DNA from: Candidatus Baldrarchaeum yapensis
Lineage (GTDB): Archaea > Asgardarchaeota > Baldrarchaeia > Baldrarchaeales > Baldrarchaeaceae
DNA length: 13,188 nucleotides
Assembly: GCA_016840465.1 (NCBI GenBank)
Contig: JAEOSH010000055.1
Span: 1-13,188 of the forward strand
Direction: 5' to 3'
How positions within the stretch are numbered: position 1 is the first letter of the stretch; every line of letters starts with the position of its first letter. The position numbers and the translations under genes are program-made. Under the pieces are notes generated by a model that saw only the letters and a program-made list of their open reading frames with translations, was not told the origin of the DNA and searched no databases. This document shows, one piece after another, positions 42-12,542 of the stretch.

Positions 42-1568
42 GTGAACGCCTGTTTAAATGAACCATGCAACAACCGTCGAATGGAAGTGGTTTCCGTGAA
101 GAGGGGAGCAGTAGCATTCGTGGTATTCCTAGTTGTATTTCTCGTGACTGCCACTCTGCCCATATATTTCCAGTACACAACCGTCGATATAAAGAGTGGT
201 CAGATAAGTACTCCCGTCGGACCAATAGGACTCGCTTACGTAAGCCCAAAGTTCGAGGCGCGGAAGGACATCGTTTTCATAGTGGTGCACGGCTGGTCTG
301 GAAGTAACTTCTTTGTCAGACCGCTAGCAATAGAAATTGCGAAAATGGGGTTCAAAGTATTACTCATGGACCATATGGGGCACTGTGGATCTGAGAATTT
401 CCTCATGCTGAGACTTCAGCTTAAGGATATTAGAAAGATGTGTGTAGATGCCATGGAAAAATCTTTCTTCTACATGCAACTCGTAATATCTGAGGCTCGG
501 AGGTTTGTCGGAAACAATAGTGCAAAGATTATAATCGTGGGGCATAGCTTAGGAGGAGCCCTTGCGATAATGTGGGGTTTTCAATCTAGGGACGTAGAAC
601 TAGTCTTTGCTCTCGGCCCAGTCCCCACATACGAGTACGTTAATGCATCTATGCCCAAGAGGCTTATCGTAATTATGGGAAAGTGGGACCAAGTTTTCAC
701 ATTAGAGGAAGAAATGGAACTCCTAAGGAGGGCGGGGTGGGCGGAACCCCGAGTTGATGAGTATTTCGAGACAAATGGAACCGTACGCGGACTCTATATG
801 GTGAAATGGGCAGGGCATCTTTGGGAACCATACTCGAAGGAAACAGTCGAAATAATAAGGGAATGGACCAAGAAGGTTGCAGGCCCGGTAAGGGAAGCCC
901 CCATTAATATAATGATCCACTCGATATGCGGAATAGTAATATCACCGATAATGGGAGCGTTTGCGATAGCAACGCTTCCAAGAATATTGGCGAGAAGGCT
1001 AGGTACCGAAAGAAGGAACTTCTCCGAAATTTTCGGGAGCCCATTACCTCAAATGGAGGGGGCACGCAGACTCGTATTTGCGCTAATAATGGGTCTCGGC
1101 CTTTACACAGAGATTTTTGCAAGCCTCGGCTTTTCGTTCATACCGGTGTTTCCTGCGACTTTCCTTAGACTTGCACTGGTTCCTCTGTTCTTCATCCTCT
1201 TACTGGTAGGGAATCTTATATGGGAGGCGATATTCAGGAAACTCTTACCTCGTCCTCTCGCAAAGAGAGGAAAACCAGCTCTGTATCTGTCAGTTGGTGC
1301 ATCTATGGGCGTGCGTTATATCCTAATAGCGCTACCGTTCCTCTTGCTCGCAGTGTACGCGGAAAGAATGGGATTCGGCAGCGTCTCGATATTAAGGGGG
1401 TTAATGATGCTTTTCATGATAATAGGGGCCATAGGAACATTGCTCATGGAGATTGCAGCAATAACAACATACCTCTATACGGAGGATATAAAAGCGTCTG
1501 CGTTTGCAAATACACTTCCATGGGCTGTGATCGGAGCATCTGCGCTCCCATTAATGCTAATAGTCTAA
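42..1568 (+). CDS. Membrane-anchored alpha/beta hydrolase with polytopic C-terminal domain
   Basis: Probable serine hydrolase (esterase, lipase or peptidase of the alpha/beta fold); the substrate cannot be told. Numbered from the GTG at 42, a hydrophobic segment lies at about 21-42, followed by a soluble hydrolase domain at about 70-285. That domain has an HGW oxyanion-type motif (83-85), the nucleophile elbow GHSLGG with S169, a plausible acid D216 in GKWDQ, and a plausible base H259 in WAGH. Residues 289-508 then hold about six hydrophobic segments. Three N-x-S/T sequons (NNS, NAS, NGT) fall in the hydrolase domain, which fits an outside location. The start is uncertain. The TATA-like box at 11-20 predicts transcription from about 41-42, favouring leaderless GTG at 42. 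An ATG at 81, or a GTG at 96 that would give a neat MKRG signal-anchor start behind a weak GGAAGTGG site, are alternatives. Hydrolase fold is confident; the role of the membrane half is unknown. Confidence 0.85.
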   Translation: MNACLNEPCNNRRMEVVSVKRGAVAFVVFLVVFLVTATLPIYFQYTTVDIKSGQISTPVGPIGLAYVSPKFEARKDIVFIVVHGWSGSNFFVRPLAIEIAKMGFKVLLMDHMGHCGSENFLMLRLQLKDIRKMCVDAMEKSFFYMQLVISEARRFVGNNSAKIIIVGHSLGGALAIMWGFQSRDVELVFALGPVPTYEYVNASMPKRLIVIMGKWDQVFTLEEEMELLRRAGWAEPRVDEYFETNGTVRGLYMVKWAGHLWEPYSKETVEIIREWTKKVAGPVREAPINIMIHSICGIVISPIMGAFAIATLPRILARRLGTERRNFSEIFGSPLPQMEGARRLVFALIMGLGLYTEIFASLGFSFIPVFPATFLRLALVPLFFILLLVGNLIWEAIFRKLLPRPLAKRGKPALYLSVGASMGVRYILIALPFLLLAVYAERMGFGSVSILRGLMMLFMIIGAIGTLLMEIAAITTYLYTEDIKASAFANTLPWAVIGASALPLMLIV

Positions 1569-2049: not shown

Positions 2050-2763
2050 AGCTGGGCATCATTATTATTCCGTAAATGTAATCGAGCGATGCAAGATCTC
2101 CGCAGTTCTGACACACGTCATGAGATTGATGTCTCCTCCTGTGTCAATAGGGAAAAGATTCAGAAAAAACTTGCTAAGAAGCCACGTAAGATGAAAAAAC
2201 TTGAAGAAGTACTCTGGAAGGGAGAAGAGAAGAGTTAAAGACCATCCGCATAAAGTATCAGCTATAATTATCTCAGAAGCTATGAAACGTAATGCCAAGA
2301 TTATAATGGAGGATTTAAAGTATATACGAAATCATCTACTAAAAATAAAAATAATAAGAACATGAGGAGAAGACTAAATAGATGGAACTTCAGAAAATTA
2401 CGGTTCTTCATCGAATATAAAGCTAAATGGAATGGTTTAAGTATTAATTATGTTAGAAGCTTATAAAATCTCAACCCTGTGCCCAATATATGTGGGTCTA
2501 GATCAAATCCGAATGGGCACAGGATCTTGAGATGCGAGAAATGTGGCTTAGAATTCGATAGAGATGTTGTGGCAACTAAAGCCAGACGGAACGGGAGAAA
2601 CGCTCCATCCAGTACCAAATATTACCAAAGACCCATAAAACTGGATAAAGCGGAGAACGGAGATACCAAGGAAGTACGGAAAGCCCATCATATTGGGAAT
2701 GAACAGTGGTTCGACGCGTACTTCAAGGTGATCTACGGGAAGACATACCGATACACCTCATGA
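2050..2763 (+). pseudogene. tnpB: Decayed TnpB (IS200/IS605-family RNA-guided nuclease) remnant
   Basis: Fragments in several plus-strand frames join into the C-terminal half of an archaeal TnpB. In order: IQKKLAKKPRKMKKL (from about 2150); RRVKDHPHKVSAIIISEA and AKIIMEDLKYIR (from 2228), which is the RuvC-II neighbourhood with the ED of LEDLK; LNRWNFRKLRFFIEYKAKWNGLSINYV (from about 2370); then CG...NPNGHRILRCEKCGLEFDRDVVAT, the second half of the zinc ribbon plus the RuvC-III aspartate. Stops at about 2236, 2361 and 2464 and frame changes separate them. In the zinc ribbon the expected CPICG codons are disrupted by what looks like a 2-base AT duplication (ATATAT near 2488). The N-terminal half with the first RuvC aspartate is not recognisable, and no tnpA lies nearby. 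Such nucleases use a guide RNA from the element end; this copy cannot make an active protein. Confidence 0.85.
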
Positions 2764-8355: not shown

Positions 8356-8793
8356 TTAGCATTTCTTTCCCAATTCTCCTATGAAGATGACATTCTTCTC
8401 CTTTCTTTTGATCGCGTTGCATAGTTTCTCATCTGCGGTTATTAGGGGGGCATTTATTTTTCTTGTGCAGATTATGTAAATAGCGTCATACACCGTCACG
8501 GGGTTTTCAGTTGCGTATCTCAGGGCTTCTTCTAGGATTTTCCAGTCCACGTTTATTGTTCGGATGTCGATTTCCTTTAGTGTGTCCAGGGACTCGAGAG
8601 CGATCTTCTGGTCGATAATTTTCCTGAGTGTGTATTTCCGGAGGGCACTTGCCACTTCCAACCTGAAGAGGTCGGGTGCGTAGAGTTCGAGCGTACCGTT
8701 TTTGTACCTTTCTAGAATTTCGAAAGCAATATCGCTGTAGTCTTCGGGTATGAACCACTTTACGACTACCGATGCATCGACTACGGCTTTCAT
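8356..8793 (-). CDS. vapC: VapC-type PIN-domain ribonuclease toxin, intact
   Basis: A 145-residue PIN-domain protein, normal VapC length, with all four acidic active-site residues in expected places: D6 (VVDASV), E46 (RLEVASAL), D103 (VYDAIYI) and D121 (ITADEKL). These coordinate Mg2+ or Mn2+ for RNA cleavage; in the family the targets are tRNA or rRNA. The start ATG overlaps the antitoxin stop in an ATGA (8790-8793), so translation is coupled and toxin is made only with antitoxin. It shares only the general fold with the decayed VapC next door, so the two loci are not recent duplicates. Confidence 0.93.
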   Translation of the reverse strand: MKAVVDASVVVKWFIPEDYSDIAFEILERYKNGTLELYAPDLFRLEVASALRKYTLRKIIDQKIALESLDTLKEIDIRTINVDWKILEEALRYATENPVTVYDAIYIICTRKINAPLITADEKLCNAIKRKEKNVIFIGELGKKC

Positions 8794-9014
8794 CTACCCT
8801 CCCTATCTTCCCTTATTAATTGCGCGGCCAAATTCCCCTGCACTCTTCCTACTCTCTCCCTAATTTCCTTTATTTTTTCGATGGCCCTCTTGATTTTCTC
8901 CCTCCTCACGCGCTCCTCTAAAAACTTTCTTATCTCCTCTGAGTAGTTTATTCCTAGTCTTTCCATCTCCTCCTTGAGCCAAGCCGGAACCCTCACTCCT
9001 ATTACTACGCTCAT
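8790..9014 (-). CDS. vapB: VapB-type antitoxin, intact
   Basis: A small protein (74 residues from 9014) directly ahead of vapC. The N-terminus VVIGVRVPAWLKEEMERLGINYSEEIRKFLEERV looks like a ribbon-helix-helix DNA-binding domain (strand, then two helices). The highly charged rest (KIKRAIEKIKEIRERVGRVQGN...) is the likely toxin-binding helix and tail. It should neutralise VapC and repress the operon. ATG 9014 is preferred because GGTG lies six bases upstream; the ATG at 9026, at the predicted transcription start, would be leaderless and adds MVLA. ATGA overlap with vapC. Confidence 0.88.
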   Translation of the reverse strand: MSVVIGVRVPAWLKEEMERLGINYSEEIRKFLEERVRREKIKRAIEKIKEIRERVGRVQGNLAAQLIREDREGR

Positions 9015-9024
9015 CGCTAACACC

Positions 9025-9374: not shown

Positions 9375-12300
9375 TTGAACCGATGGAAGATTTTCGGTCT
9401 AGTATATTTGATATTGACTTTAAGTTTGGCGACATTTGTGGGAAACGAAGTTAACAGTTTTCTAAACATACAGTTTCACCCCAAGGATCTACCTGAGATT
9501 CCCCAATTTCAAGTCAGTTTGCATGATAGACCTCTCCCGATTGTTGGTAATATCTCCGCCATAGTTGTCCCGGAAAACTCCACAAGTGACGATCTCTACA
9601 ATAGATCTATTACAACCCTGCTTGAAGTCCTAGAAAGTAGAACTGGAAACAAGCCTAAAATCTTAGAGCCGGACTCTCCTATACCTGATGGTAGAATTAT
9701 AGCTATCGGTTCACACGAAAGGAATCCATTTGTCCCAAATAATATTGATTTGCCCAGTGACTTCGATTATGATTCCTTTGCTTTAAGAACATACACCAGC
9801 GGAAATAAAGAAATTTTAGCTATTATCGGTGGAAGTAAGCTGGGAGATGCTTACGGTATTTACTGGCTTGCTGATGAAATTTTAACAGGGACCTCATTAG
9901 GCGGTAAAGACATTTTTTCCCAGAATGTTACATTAATTCCCAAGATAAAACTCAGACTTGTAGATTTGGGCGGAGTCGGAATAGTTCCCAACCCGGAGGA
10001 GTGGGGAAACGACTATTCTTTGAGCAGTAGAAGATTTGAAGACGTAATTTTAGAGGATCCTCCCTACATAAACGAAACTGCCTTTGAAAGAGTGAAAGAG
10101 GAGTTTAAAGAATACGTTCATCGAATGATCGCTTACGGTTATAATGGTATTGTAATGGGCGGATTTCTGGAGTACGTAAACTTCGATCTAGTCGGAAATG
10201 GTTACGAAATATATGGCCCCGACAGTGTTTATAGGGAGAGACATTTAATTCTCCGTGAAAAGTTCGGAGAACTTTTTAAATACGCACATGACATGGGTTT
10301 AAAGGTCATTTTAAGTACCGACATGGTTGCTTTAACCGGACCCTTAGAAGGATACTTCATAAGGAAATTTGGAAAAATCGACGTCTCTAGAGACGAGTTC
10401 TGGGAAGTTTATAGGAAAGGTATGGAAGAACTCTTCACGGTTCTCCCTTATGTTGACGGTTTAATGATAAGAATAGGAGAAGCGGGTGGAGCCTATAATG
10501 TCCCTGGATGGGACTACAGAAGCGAACTGTACGTAAAAACAGTTGATTCCACTAAGAAAATGTTACGATCATTTCTTCCAGTATTCGAAGAGTTTAACAA
10601 AATTCTAATCTTTAGAACTTGGACGGTAGGTGTTGGGGAGATCGGAGACCTGCACACAAATCCTGAAACCTACGAGGAGGTTTTAGGAGACATATACTCT
10701 CCAAACTTGATAGTCTCAACAAAGTATTGCATGGGCGACTTTTACAGTTATCTTCCTTTTAACCCAACTTTCGAGGTAGGAAACCACTCAAGAATGATCG
10801 AATTCCAAGCAAGAAGAGAATTTGAGGGGTTCTGTGCGTTTCCAAACTATTTAGGGCCACTCCACCAACAAGCTATCAAGTATGCCATCGAAAACAGCAA
10901 TGTCACGGCTGTATGGGTTTGGACGCAGGGCGGTGGCCCTCTCCGAGCAAGTCCAATGACTTTATACCCCTTTTACGGCTTCTGGTTATACATCGACCTC
11001 AACGTTTACGTAACAGCCAAACTTGCATGGGATCCCAATCTAGATTTAGTTGCGATAACGGAAGGCTGGGTTTCTAAAATTTTCGGGAATAATCCTGTCG
11101 TAGTTTACAACATCACACGCATGCTTCTAATTTCTAGGGAAGCCATTTTGAAGGGACTTTACATAAGCGAATTTGCCAGAAAATATGTTAAAGCCTTCGG
11201 GCTTGAACCTCCACCCATGCTGTGGATCTTCGAATGGGATCGTGTATGTGGCTCTTCAGTAACATTAAGCGGAATATATGAGGTATGTAAAAACAATCTC
11301 GAAGAAGCAATAAAAGAAGGTTTTTACGCACTCGAAGTTGTTAAAACAATGAAATCCCTAGCATCAAACCTTGGAGATTTGATAGAAGAACGAGGATTAA
11401 GATGGTACGAGTATATGCTGGAATCCCTAGACTACGAGGAGAGTATTCTAAAAACTCTTGCGTGGTATCGAAAATTCTTCTTGAAATACTATCAGTGGAT
11501 TGAAACCGGAAAAATTGATATCTACAAAGAATGGGTTGACGCTTTAGAGAAATTCAAACTCTACAAACAAGAACATTTAAACACCTACGGCAAAAACCTA
11601 GACTTCCCGGCATATAACTTCAAAGAAGCAGACGCATTTATTTCAAGAGCCGAGAAAACTGTTCTCACGTTTTGGATCGGAAGAGTACTCTTTGCTTTTC
11701 TAATATGCTTATTCATTCTAGGAGCACCCTTTGTCCAGAGACGATTATCGATAAGTCCAACCAAGAACTGTACCAAAGCTATTTGGTTCGGCACCTTTTC
11801 CCCGTGGAATCTAAAACAAATTGAAAAGCCGGCACTAAGAGATATAGGATTCTTAAGCCTCTTAACTTATGTTTCAATTATAGGCGGATTTGCAACATTC
11901 ACATTTTTCTCAGCAATCCATCTAACTTACGGAATAACAGCACTACTAACCTCGTATTTAATAGTTCTAATATTTGCATTTGCATACAAGAAAACATGGA
12001 CTAACATGCTCTACCTGTTTGCAACACTATCACCACTAATAGCCCTAACAACAGTAGTAGCAGGAATCTGTAGCATAAGAGGTCCATTCCTATTCTGGTA
12101 CTACTTCTGGGCACAGCCAACCTTTAGATTAATCCTCATAGAACTAATAGTAACCTCCATAGCATGGTCCATCTTCGGAATCATCACAACAGCAAAAACT
12201 ATATTGAAAATGAGATTAACCTCCGTCTTCGGAAGACTCTTCCTACTATTTGGAATCATCCTTTCAATAATTGGAGGATCAACAGGAGTCATAACGCTTG

Positions 12301-12542
12301 AAAGAACTCTTTCCATAGTAAACGAAGAACTCGTAATGCTCCCGTTTGCGTTATCCGATATTCTCGGAATAACCACACATCTAAACATAGATCCAGACAT
12401 TCCATGGTACCTACTTGAAATTGGAATAATAGCAATAGTAATCGGAATAATTACACATGTCTTTGACACTTTCTGGCATAACAAAAATTTCGCCAGAAAA
12501 GATCCATCCTTTAAATTCCAAAATATACAAATACAAGGTTAA
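9375..12542 (+). CDS. Membrane-anchored, divergent GH67-like (alpha-glucuronidase-type) glycoside hydrolase
   Basis: A 1055-residue protein. An N-terminal hydrophobic anchor or signal lies at about 5-25. About 50-190 looks like the small N-terminal domain of GH67, ending in IIGGSKLGDAYGIYWLADEIL. About 190-530 is a barrel-like region: VDGLMIRIGEAGG (E369), IVSTKYCMGDF (D455), and RMIEFQARREFEGF (474-486, E482), which parallels the GH67 MMEFQ-x-TQEY-x-G motif. Next comes a GH67-like helical domain, with NVYVTAKLAWDPNLDLVAITEGWVSKIFG (543-571). Spacings E369-D455 (86) and D455-E482 (27) are close to the acid/base spacing I recall for GH67 (about 79 and 28). Residues 763-1035 then hold about seven or eight hydrophobic helices. 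Eight N-x-S/T sequons lie before residue 600, fitting an extracellular catalytic part. GH67 enzymes release glucuronic acid side chains from xylo-oligosaccharides; substrate here is inference. Start: TTG 9375 with GGGGAG. No other xylan gene is adjacent. Confidence 0.75.
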   Translation: MNRWKIFGLVYLILTLSLATFVGNEVNSFLNIQFHPKDLPEIPQFQVSLHDRPLPIVGNISAIVVPENSTSDDLYNRSITTLLEVLESRTGNKPKILEPDSPIPDGRIIAIGSHERNPFVPNNIDLPSDFDYDSFALRTYTSGNKEILAIIGGSKLGDAYGIYWLADEILTGTSLGGKDIFSQNVTLIPKIKLRLVDLGGVGIVPNPEEWGNDYSLSSRRFEDVILEDPPYINETAFERVKEEFKEYVHRMIAYGYNGIVMGGFLEYVNFDLVGNGYEIYGPDSVYRERHLILREKFGELFKYAHDMGLKVILSTDMVALTGPLEGYFIRKFGKIDVSRDEFWEVYRKGMEELFTVLPYVDGLMIRIGEAGGAYNVPGWDYRSELYVKTVDSTKKMLRSFLPVFEEFNKILIFRTWTVGVGEIGDLHTNPETYEEVLGDIYSPNLIVSTKYCMGDFYSYLPFNPTFEVGNHSRMIEFQARREFEGFCAFPNYLGPLHQQAIKYAIENSNVTAVWVWTQGGGPLRASPMTLYPFYGFWLYIDLNVYVTAKLAWDPNLDLVAITEGWVSKIFGNNPVVVYNITRMLLISREAILKGLYISEFARKYVKAFGLEPPPMLWIFEWDRVCGSSVTLSGIYEVCKNNLEEAIKEGFYALEVVKTMKSLASNLGDLIEERGLRWYEYMLESLDYEESILKTLAWYRKFFLKYYQWIETGKIDIYKEWVDALEKFKLYKQEHLNTYGKNLDFPAYNFKEADAFISRAEKTVLTFWIGRVLFAFLICLFILGAPFVQRRLSISPTKNCTKAIWFGTFSPWNLKQIEKPALRDIGFLSLLTYVSIIGGFATFTFFSAIHLTYGITALLTSYLIVLIFAFAYKKTWTNMLYLFATLSPLIALTTVVAGICSIRGPFLFWYYFWAQPTFRLILIELIVTSIAWSIFGIITTAKTILKMRLTSVFGRLFLLFGIILSIIGGSTGVITLERTLSIVNEELVMLPFALSDILGITTHLNIDPDIPWYLLEIGIIAIVIGIITHVFDTFWHNKNFARKDPSFKFQNIQIQG

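Follow-up and report, generated by a model that had tools for sequence, protein, structure and literature searches.

The final large gene on the 13,188-base contig analysed here, hereafter the window, occupies positions 9375..12542 of the forward strand, starts with TTG, and encodes a 1055-amino acid protein that the list of open reading frames, homologues, and Pfam identify as a GH67-like/membrane fusion. An earlier note on this DNA had called the same reading frame and pointed to the motifs RIGEAGG (containing E369), CMGDF (D455), MIEFQARREFEG (E482), and KLAWDP...EGWVSKIFG, all of which we found. The neighbouring genes encode an alpha/beta hydrolase with membrane helices, an MFS protein, an acyl-CoA ligase, and a PIN protein; none is a glycan gene. 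The hydrolase (window 42-1568) carries one helix at its N-terminus and approximately five membrane helices at its C-terminus, repeating the helix-enzyme-polytopic layout of the fusion protein on the same contig. The PIN-domain toxin lies on the reverse strand (window 8356-9020), with a small, unassigned upstream ORF that may be its antitoxin, and a fragment at window 2479-2763 that weakly matches the TnpB/Cas12f1-like zinc domain (PF07282, 2.7e-5, just below the cut-off) is likely an insertion-sequence remnant.

The fusion protein begins with a transmembrane helix (residues 6-24; 9390..9446), whose position is conserved in all homologues and whose hydropathy and flanking charge predict a cytoplasmic N-terminus. 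It is followed by a weak GH67N-type domain at approximately residues 60-185 (9552..9929), seen in alignments and as a Pfam GH67N match (E = 0.022, residues 106-163), and then by a GH67-like (beta/alpha)8 catalytic region (residues 191-625; 9945..11249) defined by VIA-align, Foldseek, and hhalign. Toward the end of this region, the alignment reveals a family-specific invariant motif, GLEPPPMLWIFEWD (residues 609-622; 11199..11240). A helical linker (residues 626-745; 11250..11609), recognized from the predicted model and from conservation, leads to the membrane, where hydropathy and the predicted model place a domain of seven helices (residues 763-1030; 11661..12464). All of these features are on the forward strand. 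The seven C-terminal helices and the single N-terminal one agree with the seven or eight hydrophobic helices counted previously; the earlier note had placed its helices at the C-terminus and overlooked both the N-terminal helix and the GH67N-type domain.

Several lines of evidence establish a distant relationship to GH67, and the motif matches exceed chance. The Pfam GH67C profile matched at E = 1e-6 (28.9 bits, above the cut-off of 27), with GH67M (0.0018) and GH67N each below the curated cut-off. A phmmer search of the PDB retrieved the Cellvibrio GH67 structures 1h41 and 1gqi at E ~1e-8 over residues 437-629, the family profile matched Geobacillus AguA, also a GH67 enzyme, at 1e-8 in the same database, and hhalign against 16 classical Bacteroidota GH67 proteins gave 3.1e-16, with a probability of 98.7%, over residues 131-592. 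When an AlphaFold2 model of the fusion protein, built from nine sequences and with a mean pLDDT of 69, was compared by VIA-align, GH67 crystals stood at the top of 1000 matches (Z 18.9, 413 residues, 3.8 A); Foldseek with the predicted catalytic model found GH67 at 4.7e-12, and the predicted model has the (beta/alpha)8 fold of GH67. Of the two refuting checks proposed in the earlier note, the search for a clan hit returned one, and the other, whether the three acids come together, was read from the order of strands in the predicted model. In the alignment, the HYGPxPW stretch of the classical C domain is absent and the invariant GLEPPPMLWIFEWD stands in its place, which suggests a different leaving group and perhaps a different sugar. 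Because of this replacement, and because the general acid is uncertain, the protein is described here as GH67-related and left outside GH67 membership.

Five residues, D455 (10737..10739), E476, E482 (10818..10820), K450 (10722..10724), and R414 (10614..10616), share columns with the conserved D, E, E, K, and R of classical GH67 and are invariant across the close family. Counting from the numbering of the AguA profile match, D455, E476, E482, and K450 correspond to AguA D364, E386, E392, and K359. D455 and E482 fall in exactly the columns of the classical D (D364/D365) and E (E392/E393), the catalytic bases of GH67 (D364 and E392 in AguA). R414 and K450 are aligned with an invariant Arg and an invariant Lys, which in GH67 bind the substrate carboxylate, and are candidates for the same role. 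The general acid of GH67 is E285 in AguA and E292 in Cellvibrio; both MAFFT and hhalign place the candidate acid, E369 (10479..10481), one residue before it, beside a four-residue insertion. The titles of PDB entries for the variants E285N, E386Q, and E292A agree with these catalytic roles. Thus, of the three acids that the earlier note saw in GH67 order, D455 and E482 occupy the expected columns, whereas E369 misses its column by one residue. The GH67 acid sits on a mobile loop (PMC3879575), which makes a shifted general acid at E369 plausible. In the predicted model, strands 360-366, 410-414, 445-450, and 472-478 end at, or just before, E369, R414, D455, and E482, which would put these residues on the expected active-site edge of the barrel, as judged from strand order only; the loop of E369 is badly modelled, with a pLDDT below 50 for residues 370-378.

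To find relatives, one genome each for 84,980 species was scanned with short peptides of the fusion protein, an approach that reaches close relatives only, so that the family may be wider. The eight homologues recovered are all from Bacteroidota and are approximately 40-43% identical over about residues 188-1031; a ninth Bacteroidota homologue (G290), 50% identical over residues 191-844, has an in-frame stop. The fusion is therefore common to nine Bacteroidota homologues, with approximately 40-50% identity across both the catalytic and membrane parts. Within the Asgard phylum, five of 227 genomes match: that of the window, G160 (31-33% identity, split between contig ends), G185 (1036 amino acids, 22% identity), G221 (a weak match), and G026. 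Three more divergent Asgard GH67-like proteins have hydrophobic helices. The GH67N-like domain is missing from the Bacteroidota homologues and present in G160 and G185. A tree built from the catalytic core groups the Bacteroidota fusions in a single clade (96/96) and places the window protein as sister to it (83/75); the positions of the G185 and G160 proteins are unsure because of their long branches. A search of viral contigs found no relative of the fusion protein, and the only matches on plasmids were distant, at 20-28% identity; several of these carry an alpha-glucuronidase family annotation, two of them in Haladaptatus.

Conservation of the -1 site residues, together with GH67 as the top structural match, would also be expected of an ordinary GH67 alpha-glucuronidase that removes xylan side chains and has merely acquired a membrane anchor. 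However, GH10 xylanase and UxaC gave no match at E 0.001 in the 96%-complete host genome, which makes xylan catabolism by the host unlikely and favours a role other than on plant xylan, as had been suggested. Moreover, two of the Bacteroidota that carry the fusion (G151 and G153) encode a classical GH67 as a separate gene, and HYGPxPW is replaced in the fusion protein. We consider an anchored xylan-directed enzyme unlikely on these grounds.

The charges of the membrane loops follow a positive-inside pattern that fits an N-terminus inside and a catalytic domain outside the cell. The ectodomain contains 8 N-glycosylation sequons, compared with 3.2 expected from shuffles (p ~0.008). From the positive-inside rule and this excess of sequons, we infer that the catalytic part is extracellular, in keeping with the surface display envisaged in the earlier note. 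Conservation within the membrane domain is uneven: the helices have a mean column identity across the family of 0.45-0.56 and the inside loops one of 0.42-0.53, versus 0.75 in outward loop 2 (residues 900-918; 12072..12128; SIRGPFLFWYYFWAQPTFR; 7 of 19 positions invariant) and 0.78 in outward loop 3 (residues 974-1011, including NEELVMLPFALSDILGITTHLNI; 12294..12407; 16 of 38 invariant), and the catalytic core has a value of 0.73. The family alignment contains no invariant charged residue in the membrane helices. Judged from the alignment, conservation in the membrane domain faces the predicted catalytic side, and the location of conservation in the outward loops rather than the helices argues against a transport path and points to a membrane-proximal role in substrate or domain contacts. 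It argues for a membrane domain that would serve as an anchor and give the catalytic domain additional surface close to the membrane.

Database searches with the membrane domain (residues 741-1055) produced no Pfam match over the cut-off. INSIG (0.0098) and UQCC3 (0.0055) were weak, single-member matches, and Yip1 (0.0019) matched the divergent G185 protein only; none was taken as homology. Foldseek returned nothing usable from a poor model of the domain (pLDDT 65; best E 1.4), and a membrane-only profile run against 395 Bacteroidota genomes recovered the known fusion and, at E over 0.001, fragments, but nothing else. Neither Pfam nor the fold search with the poor model gave a GT-C match.

In three Bacteroidales (L008, L010, and L011), the genes on either side of the fusion encode two HlyD-type adaptors and a TolC-type protein, as confirmed by Pfam for L008 and L010, and a pump ATPase was not seen beside the fusion gene. 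In L010 and L011, the stop codon of the HlyD gene upstream and the probable GTG start of the fusion gene overlap as GTGA. A decayed operon of the order HlyD / GH67-membrane / HlyD / TolC, with internal losses in several of the genes, occurs in a further genome (G241, L056 3186-7009). These arrangements, in which the gene takes the slot expected for an inner-membrane pump in four Bacteroidales (one with a decayed operon) and has no ATPase, bear on the earlier proposal that the membrane part moves the product or a lipid-linked substrate, that is, that it works in concert with the catalytic domain as a transporter or flippase, carrying either the uronic acid set free or a lipid-linked glycan. Seven C-terminal helices would suit such a role. 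However, the helices are the least conserved part, at 45-56% identity per column and devoid of invariant charge, while the outward loops are conserved like the core; no transporter family was matched by Pfam or by the fold search with its poor model; and the archaeal gene is not adjoined by HlyD-type adaptors or TolC. Thus, the transport proposal fared poorly, and we regard it as quite improbable.

The homologue in the Asgard genome G026 (L057 9348-10556, with enoyl-CoA hydratase- and thiolase-like genes upstream) is an intact protein of 403 amino acids in which the N-terminal helix region is joined to the membrane domain and the catalytic domain is absent. Compared with the window protein, it retains 21 of 38 residues of outward loop 3 but only 2-7 of 19 in the helices. 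Since loop 3 is kept in a protein that lacks the catalytic domain, the membrane module may act on its own and have a separate role, the alternative being an assembly deletion in G026. A retained loop 3 and a general acid out of register might be seen in a GH67-fold protein that has lost its activity and serves at the membrane to sense or bind glycans; however, the catalytic bases and carboxylate ligands are invariant in every close homologue, and we think it very unlikely that the family is inactive. In the divergent G185 homologue, the alignment places Ser at the position of E482, and the predicted activity may therefore not be general to all homologues. The locus of this homologue (L060, G185:C189, 2383-16052) comprises genes for GH99, the GH67-like fusion, two Gfo/Idh/MocA-like proteins, a phosphohexomutase, and a GH123 domain; the latter follows 13 hydrophobic helices and is a further case of a glycosidase joined to a polytopic membrane part.

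The host genome contains 12 Ras-family GTPase matches, the best of which is closest to yeast Sec4 and Thorarchaeota Rab; thus, the host is an Asgard archaeon, in accord with the archaeal origin given in the earlier note. The fusion gene has a GC content of 39.7%, versus 45.6 +/- 1.8%, and deviates by approximately 2 s.d. in 4-mers, whereas the remaining contig fits the host composition. Because the gene is GC-poor and nearer to the Bacteroidota genes than to the other Asgard copies, horizontal transfer between the host and Bacteroidota is likely and offers the simplest reading. The host probably gained the fusion gene from Bacteroidota, or shares it with them, by this route; either direction is possible because the archaeal protein is the more complete of the two in its domains. 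Neither the sharing with Bacteroidota nor the apparent horizontal gain was foreseen by the earlier note. Bacterial contamination of the archaeal bin, which the gene's bacterial closest relatives and low GC content might suggest, is highly improbable, given that the rest of the contig has 4-mer distances of 0.12-0.16 to the host (0.10-0.16 for the host versus itself), that those of the whole window to Bacteroidota are 0.30-0.36, and that the acyl-CoA ligase of the contig shares up to 57% identity with proteins of archaea from the same phylum.

The fusion protein resembles the GH67 enzymes Cellvibrio GlcA67A (1gqi/1h41) and Geobacillus AguA (1k9d/1mqr) in its domain order, (beta/alpha)8 barrel, pair of bases, and Arg plus Lys. 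It differs in being fully membrane-integrated, in the one-residue shift of the acid, in the replacement of HYGPxPW, and in sharing only ~15-20% identity with them. The next-best fold match is GH138 BP0997 (6hze, rhamnogalacturonan II), an alpha-galacturonidase (Z 17.9, a comparison of fold similarity alone); it is soluble and ~12% identical. The closest soluble relatives are Bacteroidota GH67-like proteins (L028, L029, and L031-L033; hhalign 2e-37), which share R-x-G-E and Y/F-R-T-W, are mostly ~570-600 amino acids long, and lack the membrane domain. Some lie beside sulfatase or other sugar genes, and one soluble relative (L062) adjoins sulfatase genes in a Bacteroidota genome. GH115 alpha-glucuronidases show a distant fold similarity (Foldseek ~2e-6), have no membrane domain, and possess active-site residues that are not common to GH67 (PMC3879575).

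Taken together, we favour, with moderate confidence, an outward-facing, membrane-integrated exo-glycosidase of the GH67-related clade that removes a uronic acid residue from a glycan on the cell surface or close to it. The best reading of the glycan is a surface or lipid-linked one that bears uronic acid. The sulfatase genes beside L062 and the GH99 and GH123 genes near the G185 homologue count in favour of this view; the shifted E369, the Ser of G185, and the non-glycan neighbours in the window count against it. One helix ahead of the catalytic domain and seven behind it would bracket this domain and hold the barrel near the outer face of the membrane. Catalysis is predicted to be inverting, as in GH67: D455 and E482 would probably activate water, a nearby acid, probably E369, would protonate the leaving group, and R414 and K450 would hold the carboxylate. 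The conserved outward loops may shape the leaving-group side, or keep a substrate with a lipid or surface anchor in place at the membrane. In a bolder version, these loops would belong to the active site of a membrane-integral uronidase whose substrates are lipid-linked glycans or glycolipids, and the Bacteroidales protein would also be the inner-membrane unit of an ATPase-less HlyD/TolC-type assembly; this is a speculation that we doubt will hold in full.

To our knowledge, no GH67-clan enzyme within a polytopic membrane domain has been described, and our literature search found no paper on a membrane-integrated GH67-clan enzyme or on GH67 in Asgard archaea. If active, the protein would provide a handle on the nearly unknown surface and lipid-linked glycans of Asgard archaea, and would be a glycan enzyme common to these archaea and Bacteroidota. 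Its conserved outward loops offer a concrete hypothesis, that of a membrane-assisted active site.
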